Positions 50,537 through 62,625 of a stretch of DNA of 63,353 bases are shown here, in pieces. Made by a program: the position numbers and the translations under genes. The stretch spans positions 1 to 63,353 of the forward strand of contig JAUHXR010000011.1 of the NCBI GenBank assembly GCA_030426845.1, given 5' to 3'. Under the pieces are notes generated by a model. It did no database searches and was not told the origin of the DNA. It saw only the letters and a list, made by a program, of their open reading frames with translations. The first letter of the stretch is position 1; each line of letters starts with the position of its first letter. Source of the DNA: Polyangia bacterium. GTDB taxonomy: Bacteria > Myxococcota_A > Polyangia > Polyangiales > Sandaracinaceae.

Positions 50537-52155
50537 TCTCGCCGCGCCTCCGCGAGCGCGCCCCAGAGGTGCCCGCCCTCGGCGTCCACCACCGCGAGCG
50601 CGTGGCCGATGCGCGCGGCCACCACGTAGCGCCCCGGGCGCCCCTCGAGGAACACCACCGCACCCGGCCCGAGCTCCTGCGCGCGCACCTCGTCCTCGTC
50701 GACCCACTGGTCGACCCCGTCGCTCCGGGCCACCCGCACCCGGCCGGGCTCGCTCTCCACCGCGAGCCCGGGCCGCCACGCGCCCTCGCTGCGGACGTCG
50801 ACCCACGCCCCCGGCGGGATCTCGTAGCGCCTCCCTTCGCCCTCGCGGTGGGCTCCGTCGATCGCGATCCGCACCCGCGCCGCGCTCGTCCAGCGCGAGT
50901 CGAGCCCGTCGACCTTCAAGGCCGGCCCCACCCGCGCGAGCACGGTGGCCGGCCGGTAGCGCGCCCCGTCGAACACCTCGACCGCGTCGCCCTCGGCGAG
51001 CTCGGGCGCGAGCACGTCCCGCCGGCCGACCCAGTCCGCGGCGCCGTCCGCGTAGATGACGAAGGCGCGCCCGCGCCGCACCCGCGCGACGACCGCGAGC
51101 TGGAACCAGCGAGAGCCCTCGCCGAGCCGCGCGAGGACCTGGGTGCCGACGTAGAGCGGCGCGTAGGGTCGGCTCGGCGCTCCCGGCGGTGGCTCCGTGG
51201 CCGCGTCGCTCGCGCGCGCGGTGCCCTCCCCCCGGTGCTCGAGCTGCGGCTCCTCGTGCACCACCCCGAGCGGAGCCTGCAGCGCCCCCGGCGGCGCGAG
51301 CGGCACCCCGACGAGGTAGAGCGTCGCGATCGCGAGGCCCCCCGCGCCGAGCCAGGTCATCCCCGCGAGGCTCCACCCCGAGGCGCGCGGCCGCACCCTC
51401 GCGCGGGCCCTCCCCCGCCAGCGGCTCGCGCGCACCGCCGGGTCGCTCGACGCCGCGATGATCAGCCCCGCCGCCTCGAGGAGCCGCCCGCCGCACCGAC
51501 CGCAGTCCCGCTCGGCAGCCTCGTCGGCCTCGCGCGCGAGCAGCGGCGCGTCGCACCGCGGGCAACGCTCGCTGACACGCCGCTCACGCGCCTCGGCCAC
51601 GTCCGCCTGGATCGCCCGCCGCGCCCTCCGCCAGGCGAGCGCGGGCCCGAGGAGCAGCAGCGCCGCGAGGGCGCCGGAGACCCCCCACGCCACGACCGGC
51701 GCCTCGAGCGCCCCGCCGACCCGCACCCCGAGCGCGACCATCGTCCCGGCGACGACCAGCGACGCGACCGCGAGCAGCCCCTCCTCCGCGAGCGTCGGCC
51801 CCGCCCGACGCCCGGCCTCGCGCCAGCCCCGCAGAGCCTCCGCGCGCCAGGCGTCAGCGCGCCTTGCGACCTCGCGCGGTGGCGACCCGGACCCGGACCC
51901 GGACCCGGACCCGGACCCGGACCCGGACCCGGACCCGGACCCGGACCCGGACCCGGACCCGGACCCGGACCCGGACCCGGACCCGGACCCCGACCCGGAC
52001 CCGGACCCGGACCCGGACCCGGACCCGGACCCGGACCCGGACCCGGACCCGGACCCGGACCCGGACCCGTCACGCGAAGACGCTTCGCGCGACGCCCCCG
52101 AGGGCGCGGCCTCCTCGCGCGCGGCCGCCTCGCGCGGAGGCGTCGGCTCGCTCAC
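50533..52155 (-). CDS. Membrane protein with (GS)n tract, zinc ribbon and SH3-like repeats
   Basis: 540 residues from GTG 52155, overlapping the VanY gene stop (GTGA). An N-terminal Ser/Gly-rich tail (about 30-91) is a perfect Gly-Ser alternation from DNA hexamers. Two hydrophobic helices (about 110-165) follow, then a zinc-ribbon (CPRCDAPLL...CGRCGGRL), a third helix (about 245-268) and a C-terminal series of Tudor/SH3-like strands (VLARLGEGSRWFQLAVV, VFDGARYRPATVLARVG, ASVDVRSEGAWRPGLAV-type). Neighbours are a PrimPol-HAD gene and a VanY gene, all overlapping. Role unknown. Confidence 0.68.
   Translation of the reverse strand: MSEPTPPREAAAREEAAPSGASREASSRDGSGSGSGSGSGSGSGSGSGSGSGSGSGSGSGSGSGSGSGSGSGSGSGSGSGSGSGSGSGSGSPPREVARRADAWRAEALRGWREAGRRAGPTLAEEGLLAVASLVVAGTMVALGVRVGGALEAPVVAWGVSGALAALLLLGPALAWRRARRAIQADVAEARERRVSERCPRCDAPLLAREADEAAERDCGRCGGRLLEAAGLIIAASSDPAVRASRWRGRARARVRPRASGWSLAGMTWLGAGGLAIATLYLVGVPLAPPGALQAPLGVVHEEPQLEHRGEGTARASDAATEPPPGAPSRPYAPLYVGTQVLARLGEGSRWFQLAVVARVRRGRAFVIYADGAADWVGRRDVLAPELAEGDAVEVFDGARYRPATVLARVGPALKVDGLDSRWTSAARVRIAIDGAHREGEGRRYEIPPGAWVDVRSEGAWRPGLAVESEPGRVRVARSDGVDQWVDEDEVRAQELGPGAVVFLEGRPGRYVVAARIGHALAVVDAEGGHLWGALAEARRE
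51884..52069 (+). repeat. 31 tandem copies of a GACCCG hexamer
   Basis: An uninterrupted 186-bp run of the hexamer GACCCG with a single G-to-C change at 51991. On the minus strand it reads GGG-TCC, giving an exact Gly-Ser alternation. The one change is synonymous (Ser TCC to TCG). Length variation would alter only the linker and keep the frame. Confidence 0.95.
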
Positions 52156-54096: not shown

Positions 54097-55026
54097 TCAG
54101 GCGCCGGGGATCTCCCCGCGCGGTGGCTCCGGCCGCCAGAGGAACGAGCGCTCGTCCCGCTCGAGCAGGCCGCGGAGCAGCGGGTGGGGGTAGCGGCGCT
54201 CGGCGGTGATCGCGAAGAAGTTCTCGTAGAGGTCCGGCACCACCGCGTGCTCGCGGAGCACCCCCGAGGTGATCTCGTCGCGCACCACGACCGACGGCAG
54301 CAGCGCGACCGCGCCCGCGTCGATCGCGAGCAGCCGGAGCATCGCCATGTCGTCGACCTCGGCGAACACCCGCACCGTGATCCCGAGCCGCGCGCAGGCC
54401 GCATCGAACGCGGTCCGGATGTCGCTTCGGCCGCTCGGCAGGACGAGCCGCGTCCCCGCGACGTCGTCGGGCCAGACGAACGGCTCGCTCCGAGGCCGCC
54501 CGATGAGGCTCACCCGCTGCCGCGCGAGCTGCCAGCACCGGAGCGACGACGCCATCGCCGGGCTCAGCGGTCGGTTCGTCAAGACGACGTCCAGCGCGTG
54601 ATCCGCGAGCCGACCGACCAGCTCGTCGGCCCCGCCGCTCTCCATGCTGATGCGCACGTCCTCGCGACGGAGCAGCGGCGCGACGAACGAGTCCTGGAAG
54701 TTGCGCGACAGCGTCGCGACCGCGCCGATCCGGAGCACGTGTCGGCCCGAGCGTCCGTCGCCCAGCGTGGTGAGCAGCTCGCTGCCCGCGGCGAAGATGT
54801 CGTCGGCGTACTCGAGCGCGATCTTGCCCGCCTCGGTGAGCTCCAGCCGGCGGCCAGCCCGCGCGAAGAGCGGCTGGCCGAGCTGGTCCTCGAGGGCCCG
54901 GATCTGCTTCGACAGCGCGGACTGCGAGACCCGCAGCCGACGCGCCGTCCGCGTCAGGTTGCCGTCCAGGGCGACGGCCCAGAAGTAGCGCAGGTGGTGG
55001 AAGTTGAGCTCGGTCAGCCGCGACAT
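54097..55026 (-). CDS. NhaR-like LysR-family transcriptional regulator
   Basis: 309 residues. The N-terminal winged helix is distinctive: LNFHHLRYFWAVALDGNLT, VSQSALSKQIRALEDQLGQ and LELTEAG match the NhaR branch of LysR regulators, followed by the two-lobed effector domain. It is divergent from dabB across 74 bp, and a 5-bp dyad lies at its start, so it most likely regulates the inorganic-carbon operon and itself. The effector (bicarbonate, Na+ or pH) is unknown. Confidence 0.9.
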   Translation of the reverse strand: MSRLTELNFHHLRYFWAVALDGNLTRTARRLRVSQSALSKQIRALEDQLGQPLFARAGRRLELTEAGKIALEYADDIFAAGSELLTTLGDGRSGRHVLRIGAVATLSRNFQDSFVAPLLRREDVRISMESGGADELVGRLADHALDVVLTNRPLSPAMASSLRCWQLARQRVSLIGRPRSEPFVWPDDVAGTRLVLPSGRSDIRTAFDAACARLGITVRVFAEVDDMAMLRLLAIDAGAVALLPSVVVRDEITSGVLREHAVVPDLYENFFAITAERRYPHPLLRGLLERDERSFLWRPEPPRGEIPGA

Positions 55027-55045
55027 CGTTCACCTCAGACGAACG
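55027..55045. promoter_or_regulatory. Candidate LysR operator dyad
   Basis: CGTTC-N9-GAACG, a perfect 5-bp inverted repeat containing the T-N11-A LysR box, immediately before the LysR start codon and 56 bp before dabB. It suits autoregulation plus control of the divergent dab operon. Confidence 0.5.
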
Positions 55046-55100
55046 AAGCGTAGCCCATTTTGTCTTTTTCAAGAACTATCGGGCGACCTAGAACCGCGGC

Positions 55101-56690
55101 GTGGAAACGGAGATGCTTCTGGGGGCGCTGAGCGCCGCATCGGTCGGCGCGCTCGCGCTGGGCACTTTGGGAGTGGGGTCTCGCGAGCCCCTGGGTCGCG
55201 GGGCGCAGGTGACCGCGCTCGCCGCCGCGCTCGCGGTGCTGGCGGTCGCCGCGTGGGGGCTCGGGGGCGCGGGGACGGTGATCGTCCGCGGGCCCGACGG
55301 GCCGCTGAGCCCGATCCTCCCCTCGCTGCGGTTCGACGCGGTGACCGCGGTCGTCCTGTCGCTCGTCGCGCTGATCGGCGTCGTCGTCACCCGCTACTCG
55401 CGCCGCTACCTCGACGGCGCGCCCGGCCAGGCGCGCTACGCGCGGGCGATGCTCGCGACGCTGGCCTCGGTGGTCGCGCTCGTCCTCTCGAACAGCCTCC
55501 TCTTCGTCGGCCTCGCCTGGGTCGGCGCGAGCCTCGGACTGCATCAGCTCCTGACCTTCTTCCCCGAGCGGCCCCGGGCGATGGCCGCGGCGCAGAAGAA
55601 GTTCGTCTTCAGCCGCGTCGCGGATCTCTGCCTCGCGGTGGCGACCGGGATCGTCGGGGTGTCGGTCCACGACCTCGAGCTCGACGCGATCTACGCCTGG
55701 AGCGCGCAAGCCCCGGAGCTCGACCTGGCCATGCAGGTCGCGACCGTCCTGTTCGTCGTCGGGGCCGCGCTGAAGTGCGCGCAGCTCCCCTTCCACGGCT
55801 GGCTGGTGCAGGTGATGGAGGCGCCGACCCCCGTGTCGGCGCTCCTCCACGCCGGCGTGGTGAACATCGGCGGCTTCCTGATGATCCGCCTGGCGCCGCT
55901 GATGGCGCACGCCGACGTCGCCCAGACGGTGCTGCTCGGGATCGGCATCGCGACCACCGTCAGCGCCGCGCTCGTCATGAGCGCGCAGACCAGCGTCAAG
56001 GTGACTCTCGCGTGGTCCACCGCCGCGCAGATGGGCTTCATGCTCGTCCAGTGCGCGCTCGGCGCCTACTCGCTCGCGCTTCTCCACCTGGTCGCGCACT
56101 CGCTCTACAAGGCGCACGCCTTCCTCAGCTCGGGCAGCGCGGTGGAGCAGCGGCGCGTCGCGAGCCTTCGCCCGTCCCCCGCCCCGGCCCGGCTGCGCGA
56201 CTGGATCGGCGCGCTCGCGGTCGGCGGCCTCGTGGTCACCCTCGTCGCGCTCGCGCTCGGCGTCGAGCCCACCGAGGAGCCGGCGCTCCTCGCGTTCGGC
56301 CTGGTGCTGTCGATGGCGATCGCCCCCCTCGTCCTCGCCGAGCGCGGCCGCGGCGCCACCCGCGTCGGGCTGACGACCGCGCTCGGGGTCGGCGTCGTCG
56401 CGCTCTACTTCGGCTGGCACCTGAGCTTCGGCGCGCTCGTGGACGCGCCCGCCGTGCCGCTCGAGCGCCTCGCCCCGCGGCTCGCGATCGCGGCCGCCGG
56501 CTTCGCGACGCTGCTCGGCCTCCAGCTCGCGCTCCTCCTGCGCCCGCGCGGCGCGCTGGCCCTCGCGCTCGAGCCCCGGCTCGCGGCCGGGCTGCACCTC
56601 GACGAGCTGCTCACCCGCGCGCTCCTCCGACGCGGAGCCCCGCGCTCGGGGACCCGCGACGAGCCCATCAAGGCGGAGATTGCCCGATGA
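55101..56690 (+). CDS. dabB: DabB: proton-conducting subunit of the DAB inorganic-carbon transporter
   Basis: 529 residues from GTG 55101; ATG 55113 is an alternative. About 13 hydrophobic helices of the NADH-quinone oxidoreductase subunit 5/antiporter family, with FFPERPRAMAAAQKKFVFSR, CAQLPFHGWLVQVMEAPTPV (conserved Lys and His region) and LVAHSLYKAHAFLSSGSAV. In the DAB complex this subunit lets protons drive the cytoplasmic carbonic-anhydrase-like partner. The stop overlaps the dabA ATG (ATGA), with an AAGGCGGAG ribosome-binding site. Confidence 0.92.
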   Translation: METEMLLGALSAASVGALALGTLGVGSREPLGRGAQVTALAAALAVLAVAAWGLGGAGTVIVRGPDGPLSPILPSLRFDAVTAVVLSLVALIGVVVTRYSRRYLDGAPGQARYARAMLATLASVVALVLSNSLLFVGLAWVGASLGLHQLLTFFPERPRAMAAAQKKFVFSRVADLCLAVATGIVGVSVHDLELDAIYAWSAQAPELDLAMQVATVLFVVGAALKCAQLPFHGWLVQVMEAPTPVSALLHAGVVNIGGFLMIRLAPLMAHADVAQTVLLGIGIATTVSAALVMSAQTSVKVTLAWSTAAQMGFMLVQCALGAYSLALLHLVAHSLYKAHAFLSSGSAVEQRRVASLRPSPAPARLRDWIGALAVGGLVVTLVALALGVEPTEEPALLAFGLVLSMAIAPLVLAERGRGATRVGLTTALGVGVVALYFGWHLSFGALVDAPAVPLERLAPRLAIAAAGFATLLGLQLALLLRPRGALALALEPRLAAGLHLDELLTRALLRRGAPRSGTRDEPIKAEIAR

Positions 56691-59131
56691 CCCCGACCCC
56701 CACCGCGCTCCGAGACACCCCCACCGCGGTCGACGACGCGATCGCGATCGCGCTCTGCCGCATCGCCCCGAGCTGGCCCCTCGACCGACTCGCCGCGGTG
56801 AACCCGTACTGGGGCTTCCGCGACCTCCCCGTCCCCGAGGCGTCGGGCGCGCTCGCCGCGCTGTGCGGCAGCTCCCTCCTGATGCCTCGCGCCTACTACC
56901 GCGCGCAGCTCCGCGACGGCGGCTTCACGACGGATGACCTCGCGCGGGTCGTCGGCGCGAAGGCCGCCGCGCGGGTCGCCGCCGAGCTCGCCGAGGATCG
57001 CGCCCCGCGCGCCCGGCGCCCCTTGGTCAGCGACCTCGCGGACGCCGACCGCGACCCCGAGGAGCCGTCCTTCGTCGACTCGGTCGTCGACCACCTGAGC
57101 CGCACCTGCGCGGCCTACTTCGACCAGGGGCAGCGCCGCGTGCCGAGCGTCGACGAGAGCCTCTTCGGTGCGTTCCGGCGGCGCGGCGCGGTCGACCTCG
57201 GGCCCGCGATCACCCTGGGCCTGCGCGGGTTCGCGGCGAGCGTCGCGCGCCTGCCCGCGGACCCCGTCGCCACGATCGCGGAGTGCCTCGCGCGCGCCGA
57301 CGTCGGCGACGAGGCGCCCGCCTACCTCACCGCGCTGCTCCTCGACGTCGGCGGCTGGGCCTCGTACTGCGCCTACCTCCGCCACGTGGCCCAGCTCGAC
57401 GGGGGCGACGACCCGCACCTCCTCGAGCTGCTCGCGGCCCGCGCCGCGTGGGAGCTCGCGATCCGCGACGGCGCCCCGCGCGCAGACACGCGGTGGCGGC
57501 GCGAGTCGCGGCGCTGGGCCGACATGGCCCGCGACGCGGTGGCCGCGGAGTCCGCCGACTGGGCGGCGCACCGCGCGATGGAGCTCGCGTACCAGCGCGG
57601 CCTGGTCGACGGCCTCGCGCGCCCGCCCGCGCCGGACGCGACGGAGCCCTCGGCGCGCGCGGTGTTCTGCATCGACGTGCGCTCCGAGCCCCTACGGCGC
57701 GCGCTCGAGCAGGCCGCGCCCGACGTCCGCACCCACGGCTTCGCGGGCTTCTTCGGCCTGCCCGCCGAACACCTGCCGCTCGCGGGACACGTCGCGCAGC
57801 CGCAGCTCCCCGGCCCCCTCGCGCCGCGCGTGCGGGTCGTGGACACCGCGCCCCCGGACGCCGCGCAGCGCCGCGCGGCCCGGCTCGATCTCGGCGCGGC
57901 CTGGTCGACGTTCAAGTCGACCGCGTCCTCGAGCTTCTCGTTCGTCGAGGGGCTCGGCCTCTTCTACGCGGGCAAGCTCCTCACCGACGGCCTCGGGTGG
58001 ACGCGCCCCACCACCGCGCCCGACGCCGCGGGGCTCTCCGCGCGCGAGCGCGCGGCGCTCAAGCCGCGGCTCGAACAGCTCCGCGGCGGCGGCCCGGTCC
58101 CGCACGAGACGCGCGTGGATCTCGCCGAGGGGATCCTCCGGGGCATGGGCTTGATCGGCGCCCACTGTCGGCTCGTCGCCCTCGTCGGCCACACCAGCCG
58201 CACGACCAACAACCCGCACGCGGCGGGCCTCGACTGCGGCGCGTGCTGCGGCCACAGCGGCGAGGTCAACGCGCGCGCGGTCGCGGCGCTGCTCAACGAG
58301 CCGGCGGTGCGCGAGGGCCTCGCGGCCCGCGGGCTCTCCGTCCCGACAACCACCCACTTCGTCCCTGGCCTCCACGACACGATGACGGACGAGGTCACGC
58401 TGCTCGACCTCGACGAGGTGCCCGCGAGCCACGACGACGACGCGCGCCGGCTCACCGACGCGCTCGGGCGGGCGAGCGCCGCGGCCCGCGACCGGCGCGC
58501 CGCCTCGCTCGGCCTCAGCGAGCGAGGCGACGCGCTGCGCGCGACCCTCGAGCGCCGCACGCGCGAGTGGTCGGAGGTGCGGCCCGAGTGGGGGCTCGCG
58601 AACAACGCCGCGTTCGTGGTCGCGCCGCGGAGCCGCACCGAGGCCCTCGACCTCGGCGGCCGGGTGTTCCTCCACGACTACCGGTGGAGAGACGACGAGG
58701 GCTTCGCGACGCTCGAGCTCATCATGACCGCGCCGATGATCGTCACGCACTGGATCAACCTCCAGTACCTGGCGTCCACGGTGGACAACCGGCGCTTTGG
58801 CGCCGGCGACAAGGTGCTGCACAACGTGGTCGCGGGCGGCCTCGGCGTCCTCGAGGGCAACGGCGGCGACCTGCGCGTCGGGCTGCCGCTCCAGTCGGTC
58901 CACGACGGCGAGCTCCCGGTGCACACGCCCCTGCGCCTCGCGGTGGCGATCGCGGCCCCGCCCGGGCCGATCCTCGACGTGATCGCGCGCCACGCGACGG
59001 TGCGCGAGCTGGTCGACCACGGCTGGCTCGATCTGCTGCGGCTCGACGACGACGGACACGTCGAGCGCTACCGGGCCGGCACGTTCGTGCGAGAGCAACC
59101 CAGCGCGCCGACGAGCGCGGAAGGAGAGTAG
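56687..59131 (+). CDS. dabA: DabA: zinc-dependent CO2-hydrating subunit of the DAB transporter
   Basis: 814 residues (DUF2309/UPF0753), normal length. The beta-carbonic-anhydrase-like site has Cys328 and Asp330 (VFCIDVRSE) plus His502 and Cys517 (GHTSRTTNNPHAAGLDCGAC). The His-to-Cys spacing of 15 equals that reported for the Halothiobacillus enzyme (His524, Cys539), so all four key residues are retained. With DabB it forms an energy-coupled pump that converts CO2 to bicarbonate inside the cell. Two bases separate it from the IDH-like gene. Confidence 0.94.
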   Translation: MTPTPTALRDTPTAVDDAIAIALCRIAPSWPLDRLAAVNPYWGFRDLPVPEASGALAALCGSSLLMPRAYYRAQLRDGGFTTDDLARVVGAKAAARVAAELAEDRAPRARRPLVSDLADADRDPEEPSFVDSVVDHLSRTCAAYFDQGQRRVPSVDESLFGAFRRRGAVDLGPAITLGLRGFAASVARLPADPVATIAECLARADVGDEAPAYLTALLLDVGGWASYCAYLRHVAQLDGGDDPHLLELLAARAAWELAIRDGAPRADTRWRRESRRWADMARDAVAAESADWAAHRAMELAYQRGLVDGLARPPAPDATEPSARAVFCIDVRSEPLRRALEQAAPDVRTHGFAGFFGLPAEHLPLAGHVAQPQLPGPLAPRVRVVDTAPPDAAQRRAARLDLGAAWSTFKSTASSSFSFVEGLGLFYAGKLLTDGLGWTRPTTAPDAAGLSARERAALKPRLEQLRGGGPVPHETRVDLAEGILRGMGLIGAHCRLVALVGHTSRTTNNPHAAGLDCGACCGHSGEVNARAVAALLNEPAVREGLAARGLSVPTTTHFVPGLHDTMTDEVTLLDLDEVPASHDDDARRLTDALGRASAAARDRRAASLGLSERGDALRATLERRTREWSEVRPEWGLANNAAFVVAPRSRTEALDLGGRVFLHDYRWRDDEGFATLELIMTAPMIVTHWINLQYLASTVDNRRFGAGDKVLHNVVAGGLGVLEGNGGDLRVGLPLQSVHDGELPVHTPLRLAVAIAAPPGPILDVIARHATVRELVDHGWLDLLRLDDDGHVERYRAGTFVREQPSAPTSAEGE

Positions 59132-60635: not shown

Positions 60636-60959
60636 TCAGCCACACCACACCTCGTCGATCCACTCGAGGAGATCCCACTCCGGGTCCACGATCGTCCCCT
60701 CCATCGCGAGCCCGTAGAGCAGCTCGTAGATCTGCTCCCGCGCCTCGGTCCGCTCGACCGACCCCGCCGCCGCGACCGGGTCGGCGCCCGCGCGGACCGC
60801 CTCGTCCCACACCGCCTCCCACTGCCCCGGCGTCAGGTCGAGCTTCGCCGCGAAGCCGGCCACCGCCTCGAACTCCTCATCGTCGAGCGCGCCGTCGGCG
60901 GTCATCAGGTGGCGCGCCGCGGTGGCGAGCGCGAGCAGCTCGGGGTGAGTCAGCGGCAT
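60636..60959 (-). CDS. TerB-like small helical protein
   Basis: 107 residues from ATG 60959, chosen because GGAGG lies 6 bp upstream; an in-frame ATG at 60971 exists. Alpha-helical, with ATAARHLMTADGALDDEEFEAV near the start and a second acidic helix later, resembling TerB/DjlA-type metal-binding helical bundles (A-D-G-x-x-x-x-x-E pattern). Function unknown. The upstream DNA is the repeat-rich region. Confidence 0.68.
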   Translation of the reverse strand: MPLTHPELLALATAARHLMTADGALDDEEFEAVAGFAAKLDLTPGQWEAVWDEAVRAGADPVAAAGSVERTEAREQIYELLYGLAMEGTIVDPEWDLLEWIDEVWCG

Positions 60960-61044
60960 TCGGTCCTCCATGGGCTCCAGGTTCGCGCGAGCGCGCCTCC
61001 GCCGGAAGCCCCCACACAGAGAATCACCACGCCGCCGCCCCCGT

Positions 61045-61122
61045 CGTCCACGTACTCGTCCACGTACCCGTCCACGTACCCGTCCACGTGCACGTGCACA
61101 TACACGTTGACGTCCACGTACC
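61045..61122 (+). repeat. 12-bp-period CGTCCACGTACC repeat
   Basis: Exact or near-exact 12-bp units CGTCCACGTACC from 61045 to 61092, then a decayed CGTGCACATACACGTTGA segment and a final CGTCCACGTACC ending at 61122. Many units contain the ACGT core. Confidence 0.85.
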
Positions 61123-61163
61123 CGGCCGCTCGCCCGAGAACGCGCCCCCACAGGCACCTTCGG

Positions 61164-61800
61164 TTAGGTGCATCCCCCCGACCCCGCTTGGTGGGACGGG
61201 GCCGGGGAGACGCTTTGGGATGGAGAGCTCCTGCGCGGCCGAACGCCACGCAGGCAAGTCGTCGGTTGATGACCTCCCCGGCCCCGCTGAGTCGGACGGG
61301 ACCGGGGAGGTGCTGGCCTGTGGGTTCGAAGAATCACCGCGCGGCGCACCGCGCAGGGGAGACGGCTCGGGTTGATGACCTCCCCGGCCCCGCTGTGTCG
61401 GACGAGGCCGGGGAGGTGCTGGTCTGACTGGGTTCGAAGAATCACCGCGCGGCGCACCGCGCAGGGGAGACGGCTCGGGTTGATGACCTCCCCGGCCTCG
61501 CGATCGATAGAACGAGGCCGGGGAGGTGCTGGTCTGACTGGGTTCGAGGAATCACCACGCGGCGACAAGAAACCGCGCGGGGGAGACGGTTCGGGTTGAT
61601 GACCTCCCCGGCCTCGCGATCTCGGAGACGAGGCCGGGGAGGTGCTGGTCTGACTGGGTTCGAGGAATCACCACGCGGCGACAAGAAACCGCGCGGGGGA
61701 GCTGGTCGGCGTTAGGTGCCCCTCCCCGGCCTCGCGCCTCTGAAACGAGGCCGGGGAGGTGCGATTGGAACGGAGAGCTCACCGCGCGGCCGCCAAACCA
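61164..61800. repeat. Array of six 100-118-bp units with long palindromes
   Basis: Each unit has a main inverted repeat with stem CCTCCCCGGCCTCG / CGAGGCCGGGGAGG (left arms at about 61174, 61273, 61379, 61487, 61603, 61721) and 10-12-nt loops, followed by a smaller CGCGG/CCGCG hairpin. Units 4-6 have perfect 14-bp stems. Stem pair 12 is C-G in unit 2, C-A in unit 3 and T-A in units 4-6. Units 1 and 6 share variant flanks (GTTAGGTGC, GGAGAGCTC); units 2-5 share others (GTTGATGAC, GGGTTCGA). Confidence 0.9.
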
Positions 61801-61815
61801 CGCGGAGAAGTGTCG

Positions 61816-62625
61816 TCAGACGACCGCGGGGATCGGCGCGTCGGGCGCCGGGTCGTCGCTGGCGTCGGGCTCGTCGAGGCTGAGCTCGTCGAGGCTGAGC
61901 TCGTCGAGGCTGGGCTCGTCGAGGCTGGGCCGGTCGAGGCTGGGGTCATCGGCGTCGACGTCGTCCCCCGCGTCGTCGCGCGGGCCGCCCTGGCGGAAGC
62001 CGAGCAGCCGGAGGAGGCGGCCGTCGTGGATGCCGACGCGCGCGATGCGCGACCACTCGAGGTAGTAGTCCCAGAGCGCGTCCTCGGCCGCCTGCGCCTC
62101 CTCGGGGCTGACGGGCGGGCGCGCGTCCTCTTCGTCGAACGTCCCGAGCCGCGCGAGGAGCGAGCGCCCTCGCGCCAGCTCCGCCGCGTCGAGCCCGCGC
62201 TGCGCGAGGATGTCGCGCGCCGCGACGCCCTCCTCGCCGAGGCCGCCCTCGGCCTCCGGCTTCGTGATCGCCTGGAGCCGGTCGAGCAGCGTCGTCACCG
62301 TCACCACCACCTCGGGCCCGCTCGACTGCGCGAGGTTCGCGAACACCCGCGCGTGGGCCTCGGGGTAGCGCACGCGGAGGACGACCTCGGCGATGGGGAA
62401 CCAGCGGTTCTCGAACGCGTCGATGTTGGCGAGGACCGAAGGATCCTGCGCGGGTCCCGTGTACGCGAGCCGCCCGTTGGTGAGGCCCTGCAGGAGCGCC
62501 CAGCCGCGCTGAAGCTCCGCCTCGTCGAACCCGAAGGACGCCATGGTGCGCGCCACCCTCGGCTCGCGCAGCCCGAGGAGGAGCCTCATCACCCGCGTCG
62601 CCTTCTGCCCGATGCTCATCGCCAT
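61816..62625 (-). CDS. Hypothetical helical protein with SLDEP/SLDEL tail
   Basis: 269 residues from ATG 62625 with AGGA upstream; ATG 62619 is possible. Mostly alpha-helical (MRLLLGLREPRVARTMASFG, FPIAEVVLRVRYPEAHARVF), ending in an acidic tail (about 215-269) with SLDEPSLDELSLDEL pentapeptides from a 15-bp DNA repeat (about 61870-61945). Similar helical proteins in multiple copies are known to me from myxobacteria, but I cannot name a family. The palindromic array lies directly downstream of its stop. Confidence 0.7.
   Translation of the reverse strand: MAMSIGQKATRVMRLLLGLREPRVARTMASFGFDEAELQRGWALLQGLTNGRLAYTGPAQDPSVLANIDAFENRWFPIAEVVLRVRYPEAHARVFANLAQSSGPEVVVTVTTLLDRLQAITKPEAEGGLGEEGVAARDILAQRGLDAAELARGRSLLARLGTFDEEDARPPVSPEEAQAAEDALWDYYLEWSRIARVGIHDGRLLRLLGFRQGGPRDDAGDDVDADDPSLDRPSLDEPSLDELSLDELSLDEPDASDDPAPDAPIPAVV

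Follow-up and report, generated by a model that had tools for sequence, protein, structure and literature searches.

A tandem array of six two-hairpin units behind a conserved gene of a Polyangia bacterium, a possible amplified 3'-end RNA hairpin

The locus

The window considered here is the whole 63,353-nucleotide stretch of DNA from a Polyangia bacterium of the family Sandaracinaceae (assembly GCA_030426845.1, contig JAUHXR010000011.1). Close to its right end two genes on the minus strand, gene A and gene B, flank an array of six tandem units at about 61160-61815, each 100-116 bp long, which bears out the earlier note's description of a six-unit palindromic array. Gene A (61816-62625, minus; start codon inferred from the reading frame) encodes a conserved protein, and the end of the array at 61815 directly adjoins its stop codon (61816-61818). 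Homologues of gene A are found in six of nine other genomes of the family (best 53% identity; 51% over 200 aa to the homologue at locus L036); in the genome_contigs collection none was confirmed. The protein has no Pfam match above the cut-off, and its NCBIfam match is sub-threshold only. The C-terminal tail of gene A is a 15-bp tandem repeat (61867-61944, SLDEP-like) right before the array.

Gene B (60636-60959, minus) follows the array on that strand after about 200 bp. It encodes a 107-aa protein with a weak TerB-like match (Pfam TerB, E 0.0028, below the cut-off) and with no match in PADLOC or NCBIfam, and homologues occur in seven of the nine other family genomes. In relatives that have both genes, a long distance separates A from B or they sit on separate contigs; because they are not neighbours in the relatives examined, an operon role of the pair is not conserved. 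The minus strand is the sense strand of both genes, and with the array directly behind gene A, a transcript running on from gene A would carry the minus-strand sequence of the array. The neighbouring isocitrate-dehydrogenase-like gene on the plus strand is convergent.

Several other features occur in the region. A DabA-type inorganic carbon transporter gene (PF10070, E 1e-243), followed by the isocitrate-dehydrogenase-like gene, is found at 55004-59131 (plus), and the hexamer GACCCG is repeated 31 times with 98% matches at 51884-52069. The intergenic stretch between genes A and B holds two unrelated tandem repeats, the array and a 12-bp repeat, CGTCCACGTACA, in about six copies at 61045-61119 between the array and gene B. 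A possible degenerate remnant of a unit, GCGGCGTGGTGATTCT (61020-61035, minus), is identical at 14 of 16 bases to unit positions (family D7) and may be due to chance. ARAGORN finds no tRNA in the window, and a tRNA-like reading of GGGTTCGAA (plus strand) was rejected. In the relative G003, the gene B homologue is directly behind a tRNA-Arg(CCT) gene (L079:1838-1912, minus); tRNA genes are a common kind of integration site.

Architecture of the units

Tandem Repeats Finder (TRF) reports a repeat at 61264-61762 (period 116, 4.5 copies, score 603). Read on the minus strand, each unit consists of a small hairpin, a loose linker, a big hairpin, and a short tail. In minus-strand folds the small hairpin has 8 bp (10 bp in unit 1), and the big hairpin has 15-18 bp, wobble pairs included, with a loop of 8-12 nt. 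The earlier note had proposed a stem of up to 14 bp plus a small hairpin; both elements exist, with the dimensions just given, and both are best read on the minus strand. The big hairpins are followed by CATCAACC or CACCTAAC and by no U-tract.

The boundaries of the units, all on the minus strand, come from alignment and folds, and each unit was scored with the covariance model R1. In minus-strand order the series opens with unit 6, of the outer type (61706-61815, 110 bp, 84.5 bits), which has its small hairpin at 61782-61805 and its big hairpin at 61718-61762. Four units of the inner type follow: unit 5 (61590-61705, 116 bp, 116.2 bits; small 61671-61696, big 61602-61643), unit 4 (61474-61589, 116 bp, 118.3 bits; small 61555-61580, big 61486-61527), unit 3 (61366-61473, 108 bp, 119.4 bits; small 61445-61464, big 61378-61417), which has a U-G intermediate in its big stem, and unit 2 (61260-61365, 106 bp, 108.2 bits; small 61337-61356, big 61272-61311). 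Unit 1, again of the outer type and last on the minus strand (61160-61259, 100 bp, 84.9 bits), carries the 10-bp small hairpin at 61230-61254 and an 18-bp big hairpin with G-U pairs at 61170-61213.

The unit lengths are not all multiples of three and reading frames fail to persist, so a coding repeat was rejected and the open reading frames in the array region are taken as chance. Rfam has no match at its gathering score anywhere in the window; one match at E 0.83 is far below its gathering score. Among 41 TRF rows with periods of 45-300 (from 819 kb comprising a sample of the bacterium's own genome, one relative, and the window), only the array holds a palindrome scoring at least 12. Hairpins with a stem score of at least 14 number 0 in a 356-kb sample of the own genome versus 9 in 400 kb of the genome G001.

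Pairing and strand

In one alignment structure of 24 pairs across the six units, 143 of 144 cells hold standard pairs on the minus strand versus 126 of 144 on the plus strand, a count that favours the structure, as the structure was read from the same six sequences. When the partners are slid by 1-3 columns, 45-56% of the cells pair, versus 99.3% in place. Changes on one side of a stem leave G-U on the minus strand in all eight affected pairs and A-C in none (binomial p 0.004, one-tailed). Three of the 24 pairs differ on both sides between these six related units: columns 12-35 in the small stem (U-A, U-G, or C-G), 65-104 in the big stem (U-A or C-G), and 76-93. The last is the stem change from C-G (units 1 and 2) through C-A (unit 3) to T-A (units 4-6) that the earlier note had reported; the change is present, and what reads as a C-A mismatch on the plus strand is a G-U wobble on the other one, namely the U-G step in 76-93. 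The other two double-sided changes go beyond those that the note had listed. In unit 6 the bases of pair 64-105 do not pair.

Of 500 shuffles of the 3' letters, 6 attain the covariation score and 34 attain the count of double-changed pairs; taken by itself, with six related units, the covariation is moderate. Variable columns show transitions only in 12 of 13 paired cases versus 18 of 44 unpaired ones (p 0.0012). In unpaired columns pyrimidine transitions (12/39) and purine transitions (6/24) are about equally frequent, so mutational strand bias does not obviously explain the G-U pattern.

Folding depends on the strand as well. With a span limit of 60 nt, the local fold has z -10.4 on the minus strand versus -4.4 on the plus strand, and the energy behind the former is reached by none of 100 shuffles. 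Single units give z of -3.0 to -5.8 on minus versus -0.7 to -2.7 on plus. When the whole array is folded with no limit on span, the two strands hardly differ in energy (-372.2 and -375.2). As single-stranded DNA, units 1 and 2, the two of the six that were folded in this way, have z of -3.6 and -2.9 on minus and -0.7 and -2.1 on plus; a role as single-stranded DNA may be compatible with folding alone. The strand indicated by the flanking genes is the one found independently by pairing. One-sided changes that always leave a wobble pair, the compensatory changes, the dependence of folding on the strand, and the fact that the minus strand is the sense strand of both flanking genes together make a structured RNA of the minus strand a well-supported reading of the array, and of the roles raised in the earlier note it is the structured transcript that these sequence features favour.

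Divergence among the units

Unit 1 and the inner units agree in 25-26 of 32 bases of the big stem and 12-14 of 16 bases of the small stem; in the linker the agreement falls to 9-10 of 25-27 bases, and in the tail/head to 7-8 of 23. It follows that the stems are old and have been retained, the remainder having drifted or been replaced. Units 2-5 share their linkers (23-27 of 27 bases) and look recently homogenised. Units 4 and 5 are alike elsewhere (3 differences in 58 other unpaired columns) and differ in 6 of 10 columns of the big loop (p 0.00014).

The outer units have a linker and a tail in common that differ from those of units 2-5, and both contain GTTAGGTGC and TTGGRAYGGAGAGCTC (families D10 and D11), which are absent from the inner four. 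In a MAFFT alignment the linkers of units 1 and 6 are identical at 5 of 21 positions; the program shifts them relative to each other, so this figure understates a similarity that by eye amounts to 14 of 16 bases over GAGCTCTCC...CCAA. The earlier note had likened the outer units to array caps. The shared flanks are real, and the findings show no boundary function; the outer units are better read as copies that escaped homogenisation while the inner type was amplified.

Distribution

A search of the own genome (9.4 Mb) by DNA comparison and covariance model finds the six units at 84-119 bits and no copy outside the array. A DNA search of 56 genomes yields, outside the locus, only short GC-rich pieces (best E 9.5e-4). 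With the covariance model, 19 of 53 genomes, the own genome included, have matches at E <= 0.1 (best elsewhere 29 bits), as do 3 of 183 at E <= 0.001 and 3 of 377 at E <= 0.0001. The model finds no other array among the first-look candidates of these overlapping sets of 53, 183, and 377 genomes; it scored 71, 20, or 10 such candidates per genome, of often thousands, so that a diverged copy could be missed. The search of genome and relatives for the unit that the earlier note had suggested therefore returns no copies beyond the array among the candidates scored.

The strongest foreign matches (L049:1501-1591 and L068:281-370, both minus; 29-30 bits) resemble one unit of the array. They are single two-hairpin sites right after the stop codon of a gene that we take to be MarR-like, in two genomes of one genus, and one of them has a U-tract; we read both as ordinary terminators. 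Exact-pattern scans of the genome_contigs and viral_contigs collections give no match, an 18-base linker pattern matches one viral contig in which the covariance model finds nothing, and BLAST of plasmids and phages finds no relative of the unit. The searches made of open-licence papers listed no report of such an array.

Hairpins behind homologues of gene A

Fifteen gene A loci were fetched, and 13 3' ends, including the array's own, were tested; L039 and L045, which are short C-terminal matches, were left out. One of the 12 other ends runs off its contig, leaving 11 readable. A hairpin scoring at least 11 lies within 150 nt of the stop codon at 8 of these 11 ends, compared with 23 of 207 long-ORF ends (0.111) and 22 of 600 random windows (0.037), controls drawn from the G000 and G001 samples only, with counts derived from the fractions. 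A strong hairpin is missing at the other three ends. The homologues are not independent, as L037, L043, and L046 share sequence and so do L041 and L042; the eight ends with a hairpin perhaps represent four or five independent cases. Homology between these hairpins and those of the array is not clear. The hairpin just behind gene A at L036 is a weak match to the covariance model (17.9 bits) and is read as that gene's own terminator-like hairpin. In relatives neither the end of gene A nor the start of gene B was found to adjoin a syntenic array. On this comparison, a feature that is frequent at the end of gene A seems to have been amplified in the array.

Comparison with known elements

Like intrinsic terminators, the array places a GC-rich hairpin just behind a stop codon; unlike them, its big hairpins have no following U-tract, and the array has only two terminator-like matches, both weak, one at the small hairpin of unit 2 and one at that of unit 3. 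Type III toxin-antitoxin systems offer another likeness, in that the ToxI repeats are structured RNAs set in tandem before a gene of the same strand. The repeat unit of ToxI is roughly 36 nt, in contrast to about 110 nt here; the neighbouring gene B is weakly TerB-like and without a PADLOC match, and no ToxN-, CptN-, or TenpN-like toxin gene was found behind the array when gene B was compared with Pfam, PADLOC, and NCBIfam.

REP/BIME elements can be clustered. They share with the array a palindromic, extragenic position 3' of genes, and REP hairpins in RNA can block exonucleases and act as decay barriers (PMC12306157). The array differs from them in not being dispersed, in its longer stem and two hairpins per unit, and in that no Y1 (RAYT-type) transposase was found. 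In anatomy the array resembles a multiplied form of the intercistronic or 3'-UTR protective hairpins of differential operon decay, of which malE-malF is the well-studied case; these very stable hairpins without a U-tract sit behind the first gene of operons and protect the upstream gene of a same-strand pair, and sometimes several are consecutive (PMC5927463). The array likewise places stable hairpins immediately downstream of gene A on its sense strand, with no U-tract behind the big ones. The differences are that here six tandem units of about 110 nt carry two hairpins each and that the gene pair is not conserved.

Interpretation

The structure, strand, and position of the array, the constraint on its stems, and its uniqueness among the genomes searched are read from the sequence itself. 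From these we infer its transcription, its role in decay or termination, and its route of origin. The explanation that we favour, at about even confidence, is that a 3'-end RNA hairpin of gene A has been amplified in tandem and that the resulting array would block exonucleases and/or weaken read-through into gene B. Read-through from gene A would transcribe the array on the minus strand, and each unit is predicted to form two hairpins, one short and GC-rich, the other very stable, with 15-18 bp and no U-tract. In the mRNA these hairpins would stop 3'-to-5' exonucleases and so stabilise the gene A transcript, and they may pause or reduce the transcription that reaches gene B some 200 bp further on. 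Unequal crossing-over probably built the array out of one terminal hairpin like those behind the homologues of gene A; since its growth, selection on pairing would have kept the stems while the linkers drifted.

Because one hairpin suffices as a decay barrier, six units and a conserved second hairpin exceed what such a barrier needs, and this unexplained upkeep of six copies with two hairpins each is where small-RNA and scaffold readings draw their weight. The array could encode a small RNA of several units, processed out of the gene A transcript or made from its own promoter, whose big apical loops contact targets as a sponge, an antisense RNA, or a protein-binding scaffold. We consider this unlikely. 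The repeated units do keep both hairpins, units 4 and 5, otherwise nearly identical, vary most in the big apical loop, and small RNAs processed from mRNA 3' ends exist (PMC6393394); yet the loops change gradually along the array apart from that one pair of units, no promoter was found (a weak test in such a genome), there is no Rfam match, the array was not found in the relatives searched, and, as the linkers are not conserved, there is no recognisable processing site. A bolder form of the idea, distinctly improbable in our judgement, is a new type of tandem RNA gene in which six units in one transcript behind gene A would be cut into small RNAs, the stems serving as a fixed scaffold and the loops being exchanged between copies for different targets.

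It is rather unlikely that the array is a selfish or recombinational remnant, in which slippage would have multiplied a terminator hairpin into extra copies without a role. Its restriction to the own genome in the searches made, the similarity of the inner units, which recent duplication predicts, and the simple tandem repeat beside it (61045-61119) would all agree with such an origin. The outer units, however, are near-random in the linker and have stems that are still almost fully paired, which requires selection on pairing in old copies. A DNA-level array of dyad sites for a DNA-binding, nucleoid, partition, or replication protein, one of the earlier note's proposals, would suit the regular spacing, the perfect dyads in some units, and the intergenic position. 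We hold it to be quite unlikely: a double-stranded site does not predict that one-sided changes all keep G-U on one strand, varying loop lengths mean that the spacing of half-sites is not kept, and the genome has no further copies. A mobile palindrome family (REP/RAYT or MITE), also raised in the earlier note, or an integron attC array is largely refuted and retains only a very slight probability. The units are palindromic, and GTTAGGT in the outer units fits what we take to be the attC core consensus, GTTRRRY. Against this, the own genome has no dispersed copies and, at 95% completeness, no match to Y1_Tnp (PF01797), which 5 of 14 control genomes match; the best integron-integrase score is 86.2 bits versus a cut-off of 265, and the inner units have no attC core.

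The locus offers a small natural experiment in which a single genome holds six adjacent paralogous copies of an RNA element, and these have existed long enough for the linkers to be scrambled and for the stems to show wobble and compensatory steps. If the array does protect or end the transcript of gene A, then a 3' hairpin can be expanded into an array in a bacterium, and the units of the array would form a natural set of variants with which to test how the copy number of a hairpin sets the level of an mRNA.
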